Shown one piece after another: positions 28,100-37,330 of a DNA stretch of 64,000 bases (the stretch's first letter is position 1; each line of letters begins with the position of its first letter). Origin of the DNA: Neptunitalea chrysea (GTDB taxonomy: Bacteria > Bacteroidota > Bacteroidia > Flavobacteriales > Flavobacteriaceae); the NCBI RefSeq assembly GCF_027924145.1, contig NZ_BRVP01000008.1, positions 1 to 64,000 on the forward strand, given 5' to 3'. Under the pieces are notes generated by a model that was given only the letters and a program-made list of their open reading frames with translations, was not told where the DNA came from and did no database searches. The translations under genes were made by a program, and so were the position numbers.

Positions 28100-28124
28100 T
28101 TGTTTTTATTTAAAAATATATTTG
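28100..28124 (+). promoter_or_regulatory. Candidate promoter of the arginine operon
   Basis: TATATTTG at 28117-28124 matches the Bacteroidota -10 consensus TAnnTTTG exactly. The nearest TTG (28100-28102) is only 14 nt upstream, shorter than the usual roughly 17-23, so the -33 element is uncertain. Initiation would fall about 28130, giving the first Arg leader peptide a leader of only a few bases. Confidence 0.5.
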
Positions 28125-28136
28125 TAACATTGTTAT

Positions 28137-28211
28137 ATGAAAAATAGTTTTTTAAACATAACACCTAGATTCCCTTATAGTTCTCCCGAACGCCGCCGCT
28201 GTAATAACTAA
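28137..28211 (+). CDS. Arginine-rich leader peptide 1 of the arg operon
   Basis: This 24-codon reading frame starts with ATG and ends in the sequence SSPERRRCNN before TAA. The three consecutive arginines are all CGC (28191-28199), a codon that looks rare in the surrounding AT-rich genes, which mostly use AGA and CGT. It lies between a consensus -10 element and the arginine biosynthetic genes, so its likely role is ribosome stalling under arginine shortage. A 7-bp stem (28203-28209 with 28230-28236) followed by T-rich DNA lies just after it. Translation is inferred from context. Confidence 0.65.
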   Translation: MKNSFLNITPRFPYSSPERRRCNN

Positions 28212-28259
28212 TTAGTAGTTGGTTAAAGAAGTTATTGATTTATTTTTCATTTTTATTCC

Positions 28260-28355
28260 ATGTTTTTAAACTCATTTTACATATATCTTAGAAATCAATT
28301 TCAGCATACTGAAATTAGCTTTCACTTACCCCGTACTGTACGTCGCCGCCCGTAA
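28260..28355 (+). CDS. Arginine-rich leader peptide 2 of the arg operon
   Basis: This 31-codon frame starts MFLNSFYIYLRN and ends FHLPRTVRRRP before TAA. Arginine codons are at positions 11 (AGA), 25 (CGT), 28 (CGT), 29 and 30 (CGC CGC). Codons 27-30 (28338-28349) are at the same time the 5' arm of the terminator-like hairpin at 28338-28370. A ribosome stalled on them would block the hairpin and let transcription reach the arg genes. This is the arrangement expected for translation-controlled attenuation. No expression data can be seen here. Confidence 0.72.
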   Translation: MFLNSFYIYLRNQFQHTEISFHLPRTVRRRP

Positions 28356-28370
28356 GGGTGATACTTTTTT
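28338..28370 (+). terminator. Attenuator hairpin overlapping the Arg codons of leader 2
   Basis: The stem GTA(CG)TCGCC / GGTGATAC forms 8 pairs (one G-U) with a 2-nt bulge, and loop 28348-28356 contains the leader stop codon. TTTTTT follows at once (28365-28370). A competing pairing exists between 28324-28330 and 28381-28387 (ACTTACC / GGTGAGT, one G-U). Confidence 0.65.
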
Positions 28371-28447
28371 ATAGAACTTAGGTGAGTCCGGTTCTTTTCT
28401 CCAGAAAGAATATCCTTTTTATTATAATTAATTCTTAAATTGTTGAA

Positions 28448-29092
28448 ATGAAGATTGTTGTTGCCAATAAATCTCATAGTAAATATGCTACTATCATTTG
28501 CGAAACTATGGCAGAATCAGCCAAGGTTCGTGGAACTGGTATTGCCAAAAGAACTCCAGAATATGTTATCACAAAAATGGAAAATAGCAATGCTGTTATA
28601 GCGTTAGAGGGCGATAAATTCGCTGGGTTTTGCTATATCGAAGTGTGGAGTCATGAAAAATTTGTGGCCAACTCTGGATTAATTGTGCACCCCGATTACA
28701 GAAATATGGGACTGGCAAAACGCATAAAAAAAGAGATTTTTAATTTATCAAGGGAAAAATTTCCCAAGGCCAAAATATTTGGTATTACCACCGGATTGGC
28801 TGTTATGAAAATTAACTACGAATTAGGTTATAAACCTGTAACCTTTTCAGAGTTAACCGATGATCCTACCTTCTGGAAAGGTTGCCAAACATGTAAAAAC
28901 TACGATATTTTACAGCGTACAGAACAAAAAATGTGTTTGTGTACTGGTATGCTTTATGATTCTGAGATAAAAAAAACAAAAAAAAATAAGCAAGCATCAC
29001 ACGATCATAGCTACGACAAAAAAGTATTACAACGATTAAAAAATATCAAACAACATTTATTCTTACCTAAAGAAAAAGAACACAAAAAATGA
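28448..29092 (+). CDS. GNAT acyltransferase, likely first step of arginine synthesis (ArgA-like)
   Basis: This 214-residue protein has a GNAT fold: strand 4 and the acyl-CoA loop appear as SGLIVHPDYRNMGLAKRIKKEIF, an R/QxxGxG/A-like segment at about 74-95. Being the first structural gene of the arg operon, it most likely makes N-acyl-glutamate (acetyl or succinyl) from glutamate and acyl-CoA, the step otherwise done by ArgA or ArgJ, neither of which is in the cluster. The C-terminal part has a cysteine cluster, CQTCKNYD then MCLCTGM, suggesting a metal site not usual in GNATs, followed by a lysine-rich tail. It overlaps argG by 4 bp (ATGA). Confidence 0.75.
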   Translation: MKIVVANKSHSKYATIICETMAESAKVRGTGIAKRTPEYVITKMENSNAVIALEGDKFAGFCYIEVWSHEKFVANSGLIVHPDYRNMGLAKRIKKEIFNLSREKFPKAKIFGITTGLAVMKINYELGYKPVTFSELTDDPTFWKGCQTCKNYDILQRTEQKMCLCTGMLYDSEIKKTKKNKQASHDHSYDKKVLQRLKNIKQHLFLPKEKEHKK

Positions 29093-30276
29093 AAAAACTA
29101 ATTTTAGCCTACAGTGGTGGTTTAGACACCTCATATTGCGCAAAATATTTATCTAAAGAAAAGGGTTTTGAAGTACATGCAGTTAGCGTAAATACTGGTG
29201 GTTTTTCTGAAACTGAAATTAAAATAATGGAAGAAAAAGCATATGCCATTGGTGTTGCTTCTTATGTAAGTATTAATGCTTTAACCTCTTTTTACCAAAA
29301 AGTAGTAAGATATTTAATTTACGGAAACATTCTTAAAAATAACACATATCCACTTTCTGTTAGTGCAGAACGTATAGTGCAAGCAATTGAAATTATTAAC
29401 CACGCTAAAAAAATTGGGGCTCAATATATTGCTCACGGTAGTACCGGTGCCGGTAATGACCAAGTAAGATTTGATATGATTTTTCAAATATTAGCTCCTG
29501 AAATTGAAATCATTACTCCAATTAGAGATTTACAATTATCTAGAGAGTCTGAAATAGCGTACCTAGAAGAAAACGGAATTGAATACAGCTGGGAAAAAGC
29601 AAAATATTCTATTAACAAAGGATTGTGGGGTACCAGTGTTGGAGGTAGTGAAACATTAACTTCTCACGGTACTTTACCAGAAGAAGCCTACCCTAGTCAA
29701 TTAGAGGAAACTACTCCTAAGAAAGTTGTATTAACCTTTACAAAAGGAGAACTTACGGCTATTGATGGAAATAAAAATGCACCTCAGATAAACATTCAGT
29801 TGTTAAGTGAAATGGCATCTAAATATGCTATTGGAAGAGATATACATGTAGGTGATACTATTATTGGTATTAAAGGTAGAGTTGGTTTTGAAGCCGCTGC
29901 TCCTATCATTATTATTAAAGCACACCATTTGTTAGAAAAACATGTACTTACTAAATGGCAACAACACCATAAAGAGTATTTAGCTAACTGGTACGGTATG
30001 TTATTACATGAAGGTCAATACCTTGATGAAGTAATGAGAAATATTGAGTCTTTTTTAGCCGACTCTCAGAAAAATGTATCAGGTGATGTATTTGCAACCT
30101 TATTACCATACAGATTCCAATTAGACGGTATTGCTTCTGAGCACGACTTAATGAATGCATCCTTTGGAAGTTATGGTGAAATGAATAAAGGATGGACAGC
30201 TGAAGATGCTAAAGGCTTTATTAAGCTTACTTCAAATCAGAACAAAATTTATTATCACGTAAACGGAGAGTTATGA
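29089..30276 (+). CDS. argG: Argininosuccinate synthase
   Basis: This 395-residue enzyme condenses citrulline and aspartate with ATP. The P-loop LAYSGGLDTSYCAKYL is at the N-terminus, with AHGSTGAGNDQVRFD and ISPIRD-like (ITPIRDLQLSRE) segments and SINKGLWGTSVGGSE following, all family signatures. It overlaps the GNAT gene and argC by 4 bp each (ATGA), so translation is coupled. Placing argG early in the cluster, directly behind the attenuator, is typical of flavobacterial arg operons. Confidence 0.96.
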   Translation: MKKLILAYSGGLDTSYCAKYLSKEKGFEVHAVSVNTGGFSETEIKIMEEKAYAIGVASYVSINALTSFYQKVVRYLIYGNILKNNTYPLSVSAERIVQAIEIINHAKKIGAQYIAHGSTGAGNDQVRFDMIFQILAPEIEIITPIRDLQLSRESEIAYLEENGIEYSWEKAKYSINKGLWGTSVGGSETLTSHGTLPEEAYPSQLEETTPKKVVLTFTKGELTAIDGNKNAPQINIQLLSEMASKYAIGRDIHVGDTIIGIKGRVGFEAAAPIIIIKAHHLLEKHVLTKWQQHHKEYLANWYGMLLHEGQYLDEVMRNIESFLADSQKNVSGDVFATLLPYRFQLDGIASEHDLMNASFGSYGEMNKGWTAEDAKGFIKLTSNQNKIYYHVNGEL

Positions 30277-31250
30277 TACAAGTTGGTATTGCAGGAAGTG
30301 CGGGATACACCGCAGGAGAACTTATAAGAATACTTTTAAATCATCCTAAAGCGGAAATTAATTTTGCTTATAGTACTTCTAACGCTGGTAATTTGGTAAG
30401 CAGTATTCATCAAGATTTAGAAGGTGAAACAAACCTTACATTTACAGACAAAGTAAACCCGAACGTGAATATAGTTTTCTTATGCTTAGGTCATGGAAAT
30501 TCTAAGAAATTCTTAGAGGCGAATACCTTTGCAGCGCATACTAAAGTACTTGATTTAAGTAACGATTTCCGTTTAGAAAAAGATGCTTCGTTTAACGGAA
30601 GAGATTTTGTATACGGGCTCCCTGAGTTTCAGAAACAAGAAATTATAAATGCTCATAACATTGCCAATCCGGGGTGTTTTGCTACCGCTATTCAGTTAGC
30701 GCTATTACCATTAGCTAATGAGAAGTTATTGCAGAATGATGTACATATACATGCGGTAACTGGTAGTACTGGTGCCGGACAATCGTTATCAGAAACGAGT
30801 CATTTTACATGGCGTAACAATAATTTCTCGTATTACAAGCCTTTTACACATCAGCATTTAGGTGAAATTTCAGAAACGTTGGTCTCATTACAAGGAGCCT
30901 TTTCTGAGGAATTAAACTTTATGCCTTACAGAGGCGATTTTACTAGAGGTATTTTTGTTACGGCATATACAAAATATGAAGGAAGTTTGGAAGAAGCTAA
31001 AGAGCTGTTTAAAACTTTCTATAAAGATGCTGTATTCACTACGGTTTCAGATACGCCATTACATTTAAAACAAGTAGTGAACACCAATAAATGTTTGCTA
31101 CATGTACACAAACACGAGAATAAAATTTTAATTACCAGTTGTATAGATAACTTATTAAAAGGTGCTAGCGGACAAGCAGTTCATAACATGAATCTAATGT
31201 TTGGACTAGAAGAAACTACAGGATTGCATTTAAAAGCAAGTTATTTTTAA
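30273..31250 (+). CDS. argC: N-acyl-gamma-glutamyl-phosphate reductase
   Basis: This 325-residue enzyme reduces the acyl-glutamyl phosphate with NADPH. The N-terminal Rossmann motif is GIAGSAGYTAGELIRIL. The catalytic cysteine is in NPGCFATAIQLALLPL, and the later histidine region has TGSTGAGQSLSETSHF and PFTHQHLGEI. In this operon the acyl group may be acetyl or succinyl, depending on the carbamoyltransferase (see argF'). It follows argG with a 4-bp overlap; a 40-bp gap precedes proC. Confidence 0.95.
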   Translation: MIQVGIAGSAGYTAGELIRILLNHPKAEINFAYSTSNAGNLVSSIHQDLEGETNLTFTDKVNPNVNIVFLCLGHGNSKKFLEANTFAAHTKVLDLSNDFRLEKDASFNGRDFVYGLPEFQKQEIINAHNIANPGCFATAIQLALLPLANEKLLQNDVHIHAVTGSTGAGQSLSETSHFTWRNNNFSYYKPFTHQHLGEISETLVSLQGAFSEELNFMPYRGDFTRGIFVTAYTKYEGSLEEAKELFKTFYKDAVFTTVSDTPLHLKQVVNTNKCLLHVHKHENKILITSCIDNLLKGASGQAVHNMNLMFGLEETTGLHLKASYF

Positions 31251-31290: not shown

Positions 31291-32085
31291 ATGAAAATAG
31301 CCATATTAGGAGCCGGAAATTTAGGATTGGCGATTGCCAAAGGACTCATTGTTAATAATGCCATTACTTCGCTATACCTTACCAAACGGTCTGTTTCTTC
31401 TATAGAAAATTATGCCGACTATGGCAATGTTTTCACTACTACAAGCAACAAAGAGGCGGTTGAAAAATCTGATATTATTTTATTAGCTGTTCAGCCAAGA
31501 CATTTAGAAGGTGTCTTACATGAAATTAAAGACATACTTACTGAAAAGCATGTACTGATCTCAACTGTAACCGGATTTAAAATACCGAAAATTGAAGCTA
31601 TTGTTGGTAGCGATCAATTTATTGTAAGAGCCATGCCAAATACCGCTATTTCAGTAGGTAAGTCTATGACATGTATTTGCTCTAATGAAAAAGGTAAAAA
31701 ACGTGTAAATGTTGCTATGGCTATTTTTAAACGTCTAGGAAATGCAATAGAGATTCCCGAAGAGCAAATGCAGGCAGCAACGGTAATATGCGCCAGCGGT
31801 ATTGCTTTTTGGATGCGTTTGATACGAGCTACGACACAAGGGGCTATTCAGTTAGGATTTGAATCTAATGAAGCGCTGGAAATGTCTATGCACACCTGTT
31901 TAGGTGCAGCTAGCTTATTGGTAGAGTCAGGACATCATCCCGAACAAGAAATTGACCGTGTAACCACTCCAGGAGGTTGTACCATAGAAGGCCTTAACGA
32001 AATGGAACACGAAGGGTTAAGCTCCTCGTTAATTAAAGGTCTAATTGCTTCTTTTGATAAAATCAATCAAATTTCTAAATCGTAA
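31291..32085 (+). CDS. proC: Pyrroline-5-carboxylate reductase
   Basis: This 264-residue NAD(P)H-dependent enzyme makes proline from pyrroline-5-carboxylate. The dinucleotide fold is MKIAILGAGNLGLAIAKGL, the middle has FIVRAMPNTAISVGKSMT, and the C-terminal signature VTTPGGCTIEGLNEME is clear. Its place inside the arginine operon links proline and arginine synthesis, since both derive from glutamate semialdehyde or ornithine. It sits 2 bp from argD, so it is not a chance neighbour. Confidence 0.93.
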   Translation: MKIAILGAGNLGLAIAKGLIVNNAITSLYLTKRSVSSIENYADYGNVFTTTSNKEAVEKSDIILLAVQPRHLEGVLHEIKDILTEKHVLISTVTGFKIPKIEAIVGSDQFIVRAMPNTAISVGKSMTCICSNEKGKKRVNVAMAIFKRLGNAIEIPEEQMQAATVICASGIAFWMRLIRATTQGAIQLGFESNEALEMSMHTCLGAASLLVESGHHPEQEIDRVTTPGGCTIEGLNEMEHEGLSSSLIKGLIASFDKINQISKS

Positions 32086-32087
32086 GT

Positions 32088-33221
32088 ATGAAACTATTTA
32101 ATGTTTACCCATTATATGATATCACCCCTGTAAAAGGTAACGATGTATTTGTTTATGACAACAAAGGTGTTGAATATTTAGACCTGTACGGAGGGCATGC
32201 TGTAATTTCTATTGGGCATGCGCATCCTAAATATGTTTCTAATATTCAGGAACAAGTTGCTAAACTAGGGTTTTACTCTAACGCTATACACAATCCGTTA
32301 CAGAAGGAATTAGCGGAAAAACTCGGAGAATTGTCTGGTTGTGATTCGTATAACCTATTCTTATGTAATTCAGGTGCAGAAGCAAATGAGAATGCGCTCA
32401 AAGTAGCCTCGTTTGTTACCGGTAAATCTAGAGTGATTTCGTTTAGAAATTCTTTTCACGGAAGAACCTCAGCAACCGTTGCCGCAACTGATAATCCAAA
32501 AATTGTTGCCCCAATCAATGCCCAACAAAAAGTTACCTTTTTAGAACTTGGAGATATTGACAGTGTTAAAACAGAACTTGAAAAAGGAGATGTTTGTGCT
32601 GTTATTTTAGAGTTTATTCAAGGGGTTGGTGGTTTAGATGAAACCACTGCTGAATTTTATGAAAACGTAGATACGCTTTGTAAAGCAAACAACACCTTTT
32701 TAATAGCAGACGAAGTACAAGCAGGATACGGTAGAACCGGAAACTTTTTCGCCTTTCAGGCATACAATGTAACGCCTGATGTGATCTCCATGGCAAAAGG
32801 AATGGGGAACGGATTCCCTATTGGTGGGATTTTATTACATCCTTCTATTGAGGCATGGTTTGGAATGTTAGGTACTACTTTTGGTGGTAACCACCTGGCC
32901 TGCGCTGCCGGAATTGCTGTATTAGATGTAATGAAGGATGAAAGCCTTATGGAACATGTAAAAGTGCTTTCTGAATATTTTAAGAAAAAAGCAACTGAAA
33001 TTCCAGGGGTTAAAACCATCAAAGGACGTGGATTGATGCTTGGTTTAGAATTTGATTTTGAAGTAGCTGAACTACGTAAAAAGCTTATCTACGATTATCA
33101 TATTTTCACTGGTAGTGCTAAAAACAAAAAGTTATTACGTATTCTACCTCCGTTAACTGTTCAGAAAGAACATATTGATACTTTTTTAACTGCCTTAAAA
33201 TCGATTTTGCAGCCCGTATAA
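32088..33221 (+). CDS. argD: N-acyl-ornithine aminotransferase
   Basis: This 377-residue class III PLP aminotransferase has the N-terminal DNKGVEYLDLYGGHAV, the phosphate-binding CNSGAEANENALKVA, SFHGRTSATVAATD, and the cofactor region FLIADEVQAGYGRTG followed by the PLP lysine in ISMAKGMGNGFPIGG. It converts N-acyl-glutamate semialdehyde to N-acyl-ornithine. In the operon it precedes the acyl-ornithine carbamoyltransferase, matching the pathway order. Confidence 0.94.
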   Translation: MKLFNVYPLYDITPVKGNDVFVYDNKGVEYLDLYGGHAVISIGHAHPKYVSNIQEQVAKLGFYSNAIHNPLQKELAEKLGELSGCDSYNLFLCNSGAEANENALKVASFVTGKSRVISFRNSFHGRTSATVAATDNPKIVAPINAQQKVTFLELGDIDSVKTELEKGDVCAVILEFIQGVGGLDETTAEFYENVDTLCKANNTFLIADEVQAGYGRTGNFFAFQAYNVTPDVISMAKGMGNGFPIGGILLHPSIEAWFGMLGTTFGGNHLACAAGIAVLDVMKDESLMEHVKVLSEYFKKKATEIPGVKTIKGRGLMLGLEFDFEVAELRKKLIYDYHIFTGSAKNKKLLRILPPLTVQKEHIDTFLTALKSILQPV

Positions 33222-33242: not shown

Positions 33243-34193
33243 ATGAAAGAATATTTAGATATATCAGATATTAACAACCTCCACGAAATAATAGATGAAG
33301 CTATTTCATTAAAAAAAGCCCCGTATTCTTTTGAGGAATTGGGCAAACATAAAACTATTGGACTATTGTTTTTTAACTCTAGTCTACGTACCAGACTAAG
33401 CACACAAAAAGCAGCCCAACAATTGGGGATGCATTGTATTGTAATAAATTTTGGTGCAGATGCCTGGGGATTAGAATTTGAAGATGGTACTGTTATGAAT
33501 GGTAGCACCACTGAACACATCAAAGAAGCCGCTGCCGTTATATCTCAATATTGTGATATTATAGCTATTAGAGCCTTCCCTACATTAACTGATAAGGAAA
33601 AAGATTTATCGGAGCATGTGCTAAACAACTTTAAGAAATACGGTAGTGTACCTATTGTGAATATGGAAAGTGCTACGGCACATCCTTTACAGGCTTTAGC
33701 AGATGCTATTACCATAACCGAACTTAAAAAAACAGCTAAACCTAAGGTGGTTTTAAGTTGGGCTCCGCATCCTAAAGCACTACCCCATGCCGTAGCTAAT
33801 TCGTTTACAAAAATGATGCAACGTATGGATGTTGATTTTGTGATTACCCACCCTGAAGGATATGAATTAAATCCGGAAGTGACCAAGGATACGCCTATTG
33901 TGTACGATCAGGAAGAAGCTTTTAAAGATGCCGATTTTATCTATGTGAAAAACTGGAGTAATTACAAGGAGTATGGTAAAGTAGTAAATAACGATCCAAG
34001 CTGGACCATCTCTAACAAACAAATGGCTGTTACCAATAACGCTAAGTTTATGCACTGTCTTCCGGTACGTAGAAATGTAATTGTAGCCGATGAAGTGATA
34101 GACAGTGATGCTTCTGTAGTTATTGAACAAGCTAACAACCGTACTTATTCAGCGCAAGTAGTTTTAAAAAGAATTTTAGAGCATTTAAAATAA
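33243..34193 (+). CDS. argF': N-acyl-ornithine carbamoyltransferase (ArgF' type)
   Basis: This 316-residue enzyme belongs to the N-acetyl/N-succinyl-ornithine carbamoyltransferase branch rather than ordinary ornithine carbamoyltransferase. The carbamoyl-phosphate site is FFNSSLRTRLSTQ (44-56), with MESATAHPLQALAD, SWAPHPKALPHAV, ITHPEGYEL and MHCLPVRRN following. By family knowledge, position 90 (Bacteroides fragilis numbering) decides acyl specificity: Pro90 prefers succinyl-ornithine, while the corresponding Glu92 of Xanthomonas prefers acetyl. An ungapped alignment here gives Thr90 in NGSTTEHIKEA, so the substrate cannot be assigned. The pathway must deacylate N-acyl-citrulline afterwards, a job for the downstream argE. 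Confidence 0.93.
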   Translation: MKEYLDISDINNLHEIIDEAISLKKAPYSFEELGKHKTIGLLFFNSSLRTRLSTQKAAQQLGMHCIVINFGADAWGLEFEDGTVMNGSTTEHIKEAAAVISQYCDIIAIRAFPTLTDKEKDLSEHVLNNFKKYGSVPIVNMESATAHPLQALADAITITELKKTAKPKVVLSWAPHPKALPHAVANSFTKMMQRMDVDFVITHPEGYELNPEVTKDTPIVYDQEEAFKDADFIYVKNWSNYKEYGKVVNNDPSWTISNKQMAVTNNAKFMHCLPVRRNVIVADEVIDSDASVVIEQANNRTYSAQVVLKRILEHLK

Positions 34194-34197
34194 ACCC

Positions 34198-34974
34198 ATG
34201 GAACTAAAAATCATTAAAATAGGTGGAAACGTAATAGAAAATGAAACGGCTCTAGAAGCCTTCATTACCGATTTTGCAGCTGTTAAAGGACCCAAAATTT
34301 TGGTTCATGGTGGTGGTAAATTAGCCACACAATTAGCTGAAAAAATAGGAATTGAAACTACTATGGTAGAAGGTCGCCGTATTACAGATGCTGAAACTCT
34401 AAAGGTTATTACCATGGTATATGGTGGTTTTGCTAATAAAAACATTGTTGCCAAATTACAAGGGAATGGCTGTAACGCTATTGGTTTGTCAGGTGCAGAT
34501 GGTAATGCCATACAGGCTATAAAACGCCCTGTTAAAACTATTGATTACGGTTATGTAGGCGATGTTACAGGGATTAGCGAACAAACCATTGATGCCTTAT
34601 TAAAAAGTGGATTAACACCTGTATTCTGTGCTATCACCCATGATGGTAACGGTCAGCTTTTTAATACCAATGCCGATACCATAGCTGCTACCATTGCGGT
34701 AGGGATGAGCAATATTTATAACACTGCTCTTTACTATTGTTTTGAGAAAAATGGGGTGATGAAAGATATTAATAATGAAGATTCAGTTATTGAACATATT
34801 AACACTGAAAATTACCCAACACTATTAGCGGAAAAGATTGTTACTGAAGGAATGATTCCTAAATTGTACAATGCTTTTGAAGCCTTAAAACAAAATGTAA
34901 AAAAGGTTTGTATTGGCAATACAAAAATGATTGTAGAAAACAGCCAACAAAAACACACAACAATTACGTTATGA
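34198..34974 (+). CDS. argB: N-acyl-glutamate kinase
   Basis: This 258-residue amino-acid kinase has the opening IIKIGGNVIENE, the phosphate loop LVHGGGKLATQLAEK and, near the end, FNTNADTIAATIAVGM and a nucleotide-binding KNGVMKDINNED. It phosphorylates N-acyl-glutamate, the step before argC. It overlaps argE by 4 bp (ATGA at 34971-34974), so translation is coupled. Confidence 0.94.
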   Translation: MELKIIKIGGNVIENETALEAFITDFAAVKGPKILVHGGGKLATQLAEKIGIETTMVEGRRITDAETLKVITMVYGGFANKNIVAKLQGNGCNAIGLSGADGNAIQAIKRPVKTIDYGYVGDVTGISEQTIDALLKSGLTPVFCAITHDGNGQLFNTNADTIAATIAVGMSNIYNTALYYCFEKNGVMKDINNEDSVIEHINTENYPTLLAEKIVTEGMIPKLYNAFEALKQNVKKVCIGNTKMIVENSQQKHTTITL

Positions 34975-36038
34975 TTATTCAGGAACATTTAACCGAACAA
35001 GCCACCGAGCTACTGAGACAACTAATAGAGACTCCTTCATTTTCATCTGAAGAGGAAGGTACTGCTGCTCTTATTGAAAAATGGCTTACCAAATTCGATA
35101 TTCCTTTTCAACGCAAGCAACATAATATTTATGCATTTAATAAACATTATAAAGAGGGTAAACCTTTATTATTATTAAACTCCCACCATGATACCGTAAA
35201 GCCAAATACGGGCTATACCAAAGATCCGTTTAAAGTTATTGAAGAAGACGGTAAATTATACGGTTTGGGAAGTAACGATGCTGGAGGATGTTTAGTAAGC
35301 TTGCTTGCAACCTTTGTTCATTTCTATGAAAAAGAAAATCTATCGCATAACATCGTAATTGTAGCGTCCGCTGAAGAAGAAAGTTCTGGTCCTAATGGTT
35401 TAAACAGTATGTTAACACATTTACCAAAAATTGATGTAGCCATTGTTGGAGAACCTACCCTAATGAATCTAGCAATAGCTGAAAAAGGATTGTTGGTATT
35501 TGATGCCGTGGTAAAAGGAACTCCTAGTCATGCGGCACATCCTAACAACAATAATGCTATCTACAATTGTATAGACGTTTTAAAATGGTTTGAACAGAAG
35601 AAATTTGAGAACGTATCTGAGGTATTAGGAGAAGTAAAACTCACTGTTACTCAAATTAAAGCAGGTAAACAACATAATGTAGTACCGGCAGAAGTAGAAT
35701 TGGTAATAGATGTAAGAGTAAACGATAAATATACCAATGCAGAAATAGCAGAAATTTTAGCTAGAGAAGCACCATGTGAAGTAAAAGCACGATCGTTACG
35801 CTTAAACTCGTCTTCTATAAATAAAAAGCACGATTTGGTAAAAGCTGGTATTGCTTTAGGTAGAGTAACCTATGGCTCTCCTACCCTTTCAGATCAATCG
35901 GTATTATCATGCCAGTCTTTAAAGTTAGGCCCTGGAGATTCTACCCGATCGCACTCAGCAGATGAATTCATCTATCTTCATGAAATTGAAGAAGGAATTG
36001 ATCTTTACATTAAAATTTTAAGCACCTTTTTACAATAA
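34971..36038 (+). CDS. argE: M20-family deacylase, N-acyl-citrulline/ornithine deacetylase (ArgE-like)
   Basis: This M20 metallopeptidase (355 residues from the chosen start) has the metal-binding motifs NSHHDTVKP (His, Asp), YGLGSNDAGGCLVS (Asp) and SAEEESSGPNGL (the Glu pair), then GEPTLMNLAIAEKGLL. With the ArgF'-type carbamoyltransferase its natural substrate should be N-acyl-citrulline. I use the ATG at 34971, which overlaps the argB stop; the upstream in-frame ATG at 34908 lies well inside argB and adds unrelated residues. It is 5 bp from argH. Confidence 0.9.
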   Translation: MIIQEHLTEQATELLRQLIETPSFSSEEEGTAALIEKWLTKFDIPFQRKQHNIYAFNKHYKEGKPLLLLNSHHDTVKPNTGYTKDPFKVIEEDGKLYGLGSNDAGGCLVSLLATFVHFYEKENLSHNIVIVASAEEESSGPNGLNSMLTHLPKIDVAIVGEPTLMNLAIAEKGLLVFDAVVKGTPSHAAHPNNNNAIYNCIDVLKWFEQKKFENVSEVLGEVKLTVTQIKAGKQHNVVPAEVELVIDVRVNDKYTNAEIAEILAREAPCEVKARSLRLNSSSINKKHDLVKAGIALGRVTYGSPTLSDQSVLSCQSLKLGPGDSTRSHSADEFIYLHEIEEGIDLYIKILSTFLQ

Positions 36039-36043
36039 TTATT

Positions 36044-37330
36044 ATGAAACTTTGGGATAAAGGTTTTAGTACCGATAAAAAAATAGACCATTTTACCGTT
36101 GGTAATGACAGACAACTAGACTTATTACTAGGCAAATACGATGTGCAAGCATCTAAAGCACATGCTAAGATGTTAGGCAACATTGGCATTTTAACCACTA
36201 AGGAAACACTGGATGTTATTTTAGCCTTAGATGAAATAGCTATTACTATTGACAATGATGAGTTTACTATTGAGGATACGTTTGAAGATATGCATTCTAA
36301 GATAGAATTTCTATTAGTTCAAAAATTAGGAGATACCGGAAAAAAAATACATACAGCTCGCTCAAGAAACGATCAGGTTTTAGTGGCGGTTCATTTGTAC
36401 CTAAAAGAGGAAATAAACGAAATAAAGGTGCAAGTTAAAGAGCTATTTAATCTACTTATGAGTAATGCTGAAGCCTATAAAGACATTCTTATACCTGGCT
36501 ATACCCATTTACAGGTAGCTATGCCTTCTTCGTTTGGGTTATGGTTTTCGGCGTATGCAGAAAGCTTAATAGACGATGTATACTTTTTAAATGCAGCCTT
36601 TAAAGTTGTAGATCAAAACCCTTTAGGAAGTGCAGCCGGGTATGGTAGTTCTTTCAATATCAACAGAACCTTCACTACTAAAGAACTTGACTTTACGACG
36701 ATGAAATACAATGTAGTGGCTGCACAAATGAGTAGAGGTAAATCTGAGAAAAGCACAGCCTTTGCGGTGAGTAGTATTGCTGCTACCCTGGCTAAAATGA
36801 GTATGGACATTTGTTTGTATATGAGTCAGAACTTTAACTTTATAAGCTTCCCAGATGAGCTTACCACCGGAAGTAGTATTATGCCTCATAAGAAAAATCC
36901 AGATGTATTTGAATTGATTAGAGGGAAATGCAATGTATTACAAGGACTACCTCAACAACTAGCCTTATTAACAACCAATTTACCAAGTGGCTATCATAGA
37001 GATTTACAGCTATCTAAAGAGCTATTGGTACCAGCTTTACAAGAGTTAAAATCGTGTTTAGAAATGGCGGTATTTACACTTCGGGATATTAAAATAAATA
37101 CCAATATCTTAAACGATTCTAAATACAATTATTTATTTAGCGTAGATACCTTAAACAAGTTGGTTCAAGACGGTATGCCGTTTAGAGATGCCTATAAAAA
37201 AATAGGTATGGAAATTCAAAAAGGACATTTTGTTCCTGATAAAAATGTACATCATACCCACGAAGGTAGTATTGGAAATCTTTGTTTAGAAGATATTCAA
37301 CACAAAATGGAATTGGCTCTAAAATTATGA
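36044..37330 (+). CDS. argH: Argininosuccinate lyase
   Basis: This 428-residue member of the fumarase/aspartase superfamily cleaves argininosuccinate to arginine and fumarate. It contains HTARSRNDQVLVA, PGYTHLQVAMPSSFGLW and the superfamily signature TGSSIMPHKKNPDVFE with its catalytic-loop serine. It is the last gene of the arg operon. An imperfect 18-bp inverted repeat at 37348-37398 follows and may end transcription. Confidence 0.95.
   Translation: MKLWDKGFSTDKKIDHFTVGNDRQLDLLLGKYDVQASKAHAKMLGNIGILTTKETLDVILALDEIAITIDNDEFTIEDTFEDMHSKIEFLLVQKLGDTGKKIHTARSRNDQVLVAVHLYLKEEINEIKVQVKELFNLLMSNAEAYKDILIPGYTHLQVAMPSSFGLWFSAYAESLIDDVYFLNAAFKVVDQNPLGSAAGYGSSFNINRTFTTKELDFTTMKYNVVAAQMSRGKSEKSTAFAVSSIAATLAKMSMDICLYMSQNFNFISFPDELTTGSSIMPHKKNPDVFELIRGKCNVLQGLPQQLALLTTNLPSGYHRDLQLSKELLVPALQELKSCLEMAVFTLRDIKINTNILNDSKYNYLFSVDTLNKLVQDGMPFRDAYKKIGMEIQKGHFVPDKNVHHTHEGSIGNLCLEDIQHKMELALKL

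Follow-up and report, generated by a model that had tools for sequence, protein, structure and literature searches.

Reading frames and genes at the arg locus

Within the stretch of Neptunitalea chrysea DNA that was analysed, here called the window (64,000 nucleotides), two short open reading frames with terminal runs of arginine codons are followed by a nine-gene arg operon led by a gene for a GNAT acetyltransferase (Table 1), whose product is probably the supplier of N-acetylglutamate. The preliminary description of this DNA had reported both reading frames, each with a run of three arginines near its stop codon, and had singled out their CGC codons as unusual. Both points stand: CGC accounts for 5.8% of the 496 arginine codons in 40 coding sequences of the window, against 51% for AGA. 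Three consecutive arginines (RRR) occur twice in the 18,551 residues encoded by these sequences.

Table 1. Features of the arginine locus, with positions in the window
Feature	Position	Strand	Details
Putative promoter	28100..28124	+	TTG at 28100-28102 and -7 box TATATTTG at 28117-28124, 20 nt before the leader 1 ATG; from sequence
Leader peptide 1	28137..28211	+	24 aa, MKNSFLNITPRFPYSSPERRRCNN; CGC CGC CGC at 28191-28199
Leader peptide 2	28260..28355	+	31 aa, MFLNSFYIYLRNQFQHTEISFHLPRTVRRRP; Arg codons at 28332-28334 and 28341-28349 (CGT CGC CGC), then CCG TAA
Hairpin H1	28347..28360	+	CGCCC-GUAA-GGGUG
Hairpin H2	28373..28395	+	AGAACU-UA-GG-UGAGU-CC-GGUUCU
GNAT acetyltransferase, operon gene 1	28448..29092	+	NCBIfam N-acetyltransferase match, weak, below cut-off
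argG-like argininosuccinate synthase	29089..30276	+	
argC	30273..31250	+	
proC	31291..32085	+	
argD-like aminotransferase	32088..33221	+	
N-acetylornithine carbamoyltransferase	33243..34193	+	
argB	34198..34974	+	
ArgE/DapE family deacylase	34968..36038	+	
argH	36044..37330	+	

A promoter element had also been placed ahead of leader 1, and what lies there is a -7 box of the Bacteroidota type, TAnnTTTG, which is given as the flavobacterial sigma-A -7 consensus in a published account (PMC9723704). No other strict box occurs within the 650 nt ahead of the GNAT gene, and this one immediately precedes leader 1, so that, judged from sequence, a transcription start downstream of leader 2 (beyond 28355) is not indicated.

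Arginine-codon leaders in Flavobacteriaceae and beyond

Of 199 genomes sampled in the family, 131 contain the GNAT gene, and the 130 strong matches were taken together with their upstream DNA. We counted as a leader any reading frame of 8–65 aa that starts with ATG, has at least three arginines among its last 12 residues and stops 20–420 nt before the GNAT gene. Such a leader is present in 113 of the 130 genomes and lacking by this rule in 17, against a mean of 7.55 and a maximum of 11 in 20 rounds of dinucleotide shuffling and six of 130 on the reverse strand. When a loose promoter-like box was added to the same criteria, which is our rule for leader 1, 54 of the 130 genomes qualified, shuffles giving 0.3 on average and the reverse strand none, and the tandem arrangement is therefore real and common to many genera. 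On a GNAT tree the tandem label changes 13 times compared with 41.4 when shuffled, a result that, with few supported branches in the tree, shows clustering only. Among the best 80 GNAT matches, a named set overlapping the 130 genomes, leader 2 is present in all 80 (loose rule), the loop motif of hairpin H2 in 78, and leader 1 with its promoter box in 22. Zobellia, Winogradskyella and Nonlabens are among the genera in which the module occurs. The two serial arginine sensors of the preliminary description are thus upheld as an arrangement, but it is leader 2 with H1 and H2 that forms the core shared almost throughout the family, leader 1 belonging to a part of it. A hairpin of the form CUAA..UUAG follows leader 1 in 27 of the 54 tandem genomes (10.4 in shuffles). 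At three loci (L067, L073 and L075) leader 1 is intact and leader 2 or the H1–H2 module is gone or degraded.

Under a looser rule leader 2 could be picked in 121 of the 130 genomes, and in 98 of these it ends in Arg-Pro; in the remaining 23 the stop codon is differently placed. Within the 98, which were selected for the Arg-Pro end, arginine is encoded at codon -2 in 98, at -3 in 94 and at -4 in 50, and codons -14 to -9 are mixed. The preliminary description had made a role for the leaders depend on conservation of the arginine runs in relatives, and this is what comparison brought out, the runs being kept where the N-terminal parts drift. Arginine is written CGC or CGT in 94% of 405 instances in the last 14 codons of the same 98 leaders, and in 90% of 210 instances in the last nine codons of leader 1, a preference that stands despite the dominance of AGA in the genes of the window.

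In 17 of 48 tandem genomes picked by hand the strict promoter box starts 11–20 nt before the ATG of leader 1; before leader 2 it is found in none of 45 tandem genomes and in 26 of 69 single-leader genomes, the background being 1.2%. The loose form TAnnTTT, for which the background is 6.5% with several in-frame starts allowed, precedes leader 1 in 44 of the 48 tandem genomes and leader 2 in 38 of the 69 single-leader genomes and in 24 of the 45 tandem genomes, where the sequence is rich in T and more than one start was again permitted. The promoter box thus appears to track the first leader, and an internal promoter may lie ahead of leader 2 in tandem genomes. If transcription starts a few bases past the box, the first leader has almost no 5' UTR.

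The textbook control of arg genes by arginine is exerted by ArgR, a protein repressor. We found no match to PF01316, the ArgR family, in any of 60 genomes (N. chrysea itself, 36 others of the family and 23 of the order), with nine of 14 controls positive, including Bacteroides, and eight of them over the cut-off. ArgR control was rejected on this ground, in agreement with the preliminary description, which had set the leaders apart from it.

The GNAT gene is present in 124 of 296 genomes of the phylum, and 80 further GNAT-bearing genomes were examined, 78 from other families of Bacteroidota and two of genus g128. PF01316 is matched in three of the 80: in G439 and G447, which belong to one genus of family f25, argR adjoins the GNAT gene on the same strand and there is no leader by our rule; G248 has five identical weaker matches. 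An exchange of ArgR for the leader fits this pattern, for which G439 and G447, both of one genus, are the basis. Of the 80 genomes, 40 have a leader by our rule, against a shuffled mean of 12.55, a maximum of 20 and nine on the reverse strand, so about a third of these leaders may be due to chance. The convincing cases come from family f37 (MQNTLAHRIDFIPVRPIPRRR and its kin) and from families such as f17, f19 and f22 (for example FSPSRRRPYMPRA and LRRFRRPSGV). At four f37 loci (L207–L210) the beginning of the leader is able to base-pair with sequence farther downstream, in L208 AGAATTGAC with GTCAATTCT, giving a long helix that translation would open. In the Flavobacterium-like genomes of g128 (L159–L171) the box lies approximately 316–338 nt before the GNAT gene and the leaders, where they could be read, have scattered arginines, for example MNKTSLHITSLSRTNRPTTSPEVRML. 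Three genomes of family f36 (G242, G379 and G414) have the GNAT match inside an open frame of 588–630 aa, perhaps a fusion. From the 68 family genomes without the GNAT gene, 20 were tested, and 18 of these have no argG above the cut-off; in the other two a leader that starts with GTG and ends in arginines precedes a different acetyltransferase gene and argG.

The RNA module that follows the arginine codons of leader 2

Directly 3' of the arginine codons of leader 2 lies a conserved RNA module of two hairpins. H1 is small and GC-rich; its 5' arm contains the last arginine codon, and the stop codon falls within its loop. In alignment A2 94.1% of its cells are paired, with few compensatory changes. 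H2 follows some 12 nt further on and has a stem of mostly six or seven pairs, a short bulge and the cap GG-UGNGU-CC, its loop motif G[GA]UGNG[UC][UC]C being present at 115 of the 130 family loci. It covaries strongly, with two-sided changes in seven of its eight pairs against two of five for H1. In the alignment of 99 matches to the whole module 90.5% of cells are paired and nine of 13 pairs show two-sided changes; the covariation score is 0.233, shuffles giving 0.133 (sd 0.007) and sliding of the structure 0.156 at most, figures from an alignment that was fitted to the model of the module (R1) and so leans towards structure.

Model R1 was built from 80 loci and, at E values up to 0.1, matches 99 of the loci L001–L100 and 25 of L101–L130, or 44 of the 50 loci outside the training set. 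Its match in the window, a locus that belongs to the training set, covers 28333-28404 with 75.5 bits. In 40 whole genomes, with 124 candidates scored per genome, 16 had a single strong place (E below 1e-8), always the GNAT locus, and in the other 24 the matches were weak (E 0.002–0.92) or there were none. A general role of the module in other operons was rejected, strong places being found only at the GNAT locus and none at the trp, his and ilv loci. Elsewhere, R1 gave no match at 27 loci of other families (among L176–L210) or at the g128 loci L159, L162 and L165, the H2 motif was not found in the g128 genomes (L159–L171), and hairpins resembling H1 at the stop codon, tested in 28 cases from other families, had mostly weak z values. 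Weak R1 matches were recorded at L147 and L148 (E 0.002 and 0.006; genomes G209 and G212, other families of the order) and in the two argG-bearing genomes without the GNAT gene (20.3 and 14.3 bits). No Rfam family reached its gathering score in the window; the sole match in the region, to a snoRNA on the other strand, is at chance level (E 2.9), and a known Rfam element was discarded as an explanation.

At L081, L102 and L112 the leader, H1 and H2 are found together well upstream of the GNAT gene, which indicates that the module belongs to the leader. These loci share with L341 and L342 a block, GCCGACGATTTAGAGTTA, upstream of the leader. At the 115 loci with the loop motif, the motif lies 53–113 nt before the GNAT ATG; H2 moves with the leader, and a tie to the GNAT start was rejected. 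Pairing of CGCC in H1 with GGUG in the loop of H2 was also considered and, judged by eye, is not supported by sequences with an altered H1 (L012).

The strongest match of a terminator finder in the window is H1 itself, at -8.7 kcal/mol. The leaders of the same genome that precede trpE (L338; WWW, MKMRITNTWWWYNLRQTS), hisG (L336; TTG start, HHYY) and ilvD (L337; Ile and Val codons, MNNELIYSIRISIVISQKR) have strong hairpins of -16.5, -20.0 and -13.3 kcal/mol, respectively, each with a U-tract. The H1–H2 module does not look like a canonical terminator, in contrast to these classical leaders. The same finder, which is permissive, reported something in the last 330 nt of 45 of the 130 arg regions. 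A run of at least four T follows H2 at 19 of 115 loci, and H2 was rejected as an intrinsic terminator because most loci are without a U-tract after it; the T residues peak 9–12 nt after H1, just before H2, and A residues come after H2. C exceeds G after H2 at 100 of the 115 loci, a count made without a control set and compatible with Rho. H1 and H2 do not overlap, and in the single folds covered by the analysis no classical switch between mutually exclusive hairpins is apparent. The output of the module may be a weak terminator at H1, Rho, or a partner of H2. Of the attenuation proposed in the preliminary description, then, the sensor is supported by comparison, but a strong intrinsic terminator, such as N. 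chrysea has at its trp, his and ilv leaders, is missing here.

Proposed arginine control and known leader systems

Each leader is a short reading frame in which codons for arginine, the product of the operon downstream, are clustered, and these codons are kept where other residues drift (98 Arg-Pro-ending leaders of 121 picked). On this comparative evidence, all of it drawn from sequence, we consider it likely that the leaders are part of a ribosome-mediated attenuator that measures charged Arg-tRNA by codon; codon-sensing control of the arg operon is well supported by the comparison. That ribosomes stall, in which sense control works and how the output comes about we infer as follows. Transcription would begin just before leader 1. 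With arginine plentiful, ribosomes would read both arginine runs and leave, H1 and H2 would fold, and in most transcripts the arg genes would be either not reached or not expressed. With Arg-tRNA in short supply, a ribosome would halt on the arginine codons from which the 5' arm of H1 is built, and its footprint would hold H1 open and allow expression of the operon; given the usual extent of the ribosome footprint, a ribosome whose A site holds the last arginine codon would extend just over H1, with H2 left clear. In those members of the family that have it, leader 1 would add a further sensor in series, and our guess for the output is premature termination of transcription, possibly by Rho, in or after the H1–H2 region. 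In its widest form our working hypothesis is a Bacteroidota-wide arginine attenuator that replaced a lost ArgR, with an output in Flavobacteriaceae unlike that of the trp, his and ilv leaders, in which the stalled ribosome masks H1, H2 with a partner decides on elongation, and many genera have two arginine sensors in series. This fuller version is put forward tentatively, as falling somewhat short of an even chance.

The leader could alternatively act on translation or on mRNA stability, the position of the ribosome on leader 2 altering decay or re-initiation at the GNAT gene. The missing strong terminator in the window suits such a scheme, as does the Salmonella speF leader orf34, which senses arginine codons and acts through mRNA decay and Rho (PMC6386406). 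The variable distance between H2 and the GNAT gene, greater still in L081, L102 and L112, makes a direct grip on the GNAT start unlikely, and we regard this explanation as a serious contender with perhaps one chance in a handful or a little better. Rather less probable is that H2 is itself the sensor or the binding site of a ligand, an RNA-binding protein or the ribosome, with the leader serving only for tuning. The strong covariation of H2 and its nearly fixed loop would be accounted for in this way, but arginine leaders persist in many genomes of other families and of g128 that are negative for R1, and the codons already provide a sensor for arginine.

A sensor in the nascent peptide, as in TnaC or the fungal AAP, with an Arg-Arg-Pro C-terminus that stalls the ribosome on free arginine, is suggested by the Arg-Pro-stop end of most picked leaders; proline before a stop codon is, moreover, a slow context. 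Yet where the stem of H1 is CGCAC/GUGCG (L007 and L012) the peptide becomes RRTSVRV or RRTFVRA, and elsewhere the stop codon moves (RRPLGV and the like), the arginine codons and the hairpin staying in each case. The peptide end varies with H1, so the proline codon and the stop look fixed by the RNA and not by the peptide; with no conserved peptide at an arrest site, and with the stop shifted in 23 of the 121 leaders, we rejected peptide arrest as very improbable. Fortuitous reading frames in a T-rich 5' UTR, for which it speaks that short frames are common and that some leader calls in other families are due to chance, are practically dismissed by the shuffle counts for single and tandem leaders and by the covarying RNA module attached to the arginine codons.

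If codon sensing by the leaders is correct, most of the arginine-making flavobacterial genomes examined (113 of 130) would rely not on ArgR but on ribosomes that count arginine codons, in some genera twice, beside a hairpin module absent from Rfam. Arginine control in a large group with no ArgR found would then have an explanation, and attenuation that does without a strong intrinsic terminator would have an example open to testing. A full-text search of the literature gave no leader attenuator of an arg operon in Bacteroidota among the matches listed, as judged by titles and the beginnings of abstracts, and an earlier prediction is possible.

Several known leaders resemble the one described here in part. 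In Salmonella speF orf34, too, consecutive arginine codons of a leader sense arginine, and Rho and decay are used, no intrinsic terminator having been found there; it differs in controlling ornithine decarboxylase, in having a conserved peptide domain, and in the bacteria and RNA structures concerned (PMC6386406). The arginine codons of the Staphylococcus aureus rbfL leader peptide likewise sense arginine supply, but they are AGA and AGG, and the leader blocks the ribosome-binding site of a biofilm regulator and so represses it (PMC13009471). Conserved amino-acid codons within leader-ORF hairpins are also described for uORF motifs such as uORFC-8-2 upstream of cysS, a system that differs in responding to cysteine, in belonging to alphaproteobacteria and in ending in an intrinsic terminator (PMC8632094). 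With ArgR the leader has in common the control of arg genes by arginine, exerted there through a protein. The classical attenuators trpL, hisL and ilv, and with them the leaders of trpE, hisG and ilvD in N. chrysea, also place ahead of a biosynthetic operon a short reading frame in which codons for the amino acid made by the pathway stand in a row. The arg leader departs from them in that it is without a strong hairpin and U-tract, in that an exclusive antiterminator was not found in single folds, and in its use of arginine codons, the two leaders in series of many genomes, and a hairpin, H1, that holds the last arginine codon and the stop. In kind it would be leader-peptide attenuation, linked to an RNA module absent from Rfam, but specific for arginine and often doubled.
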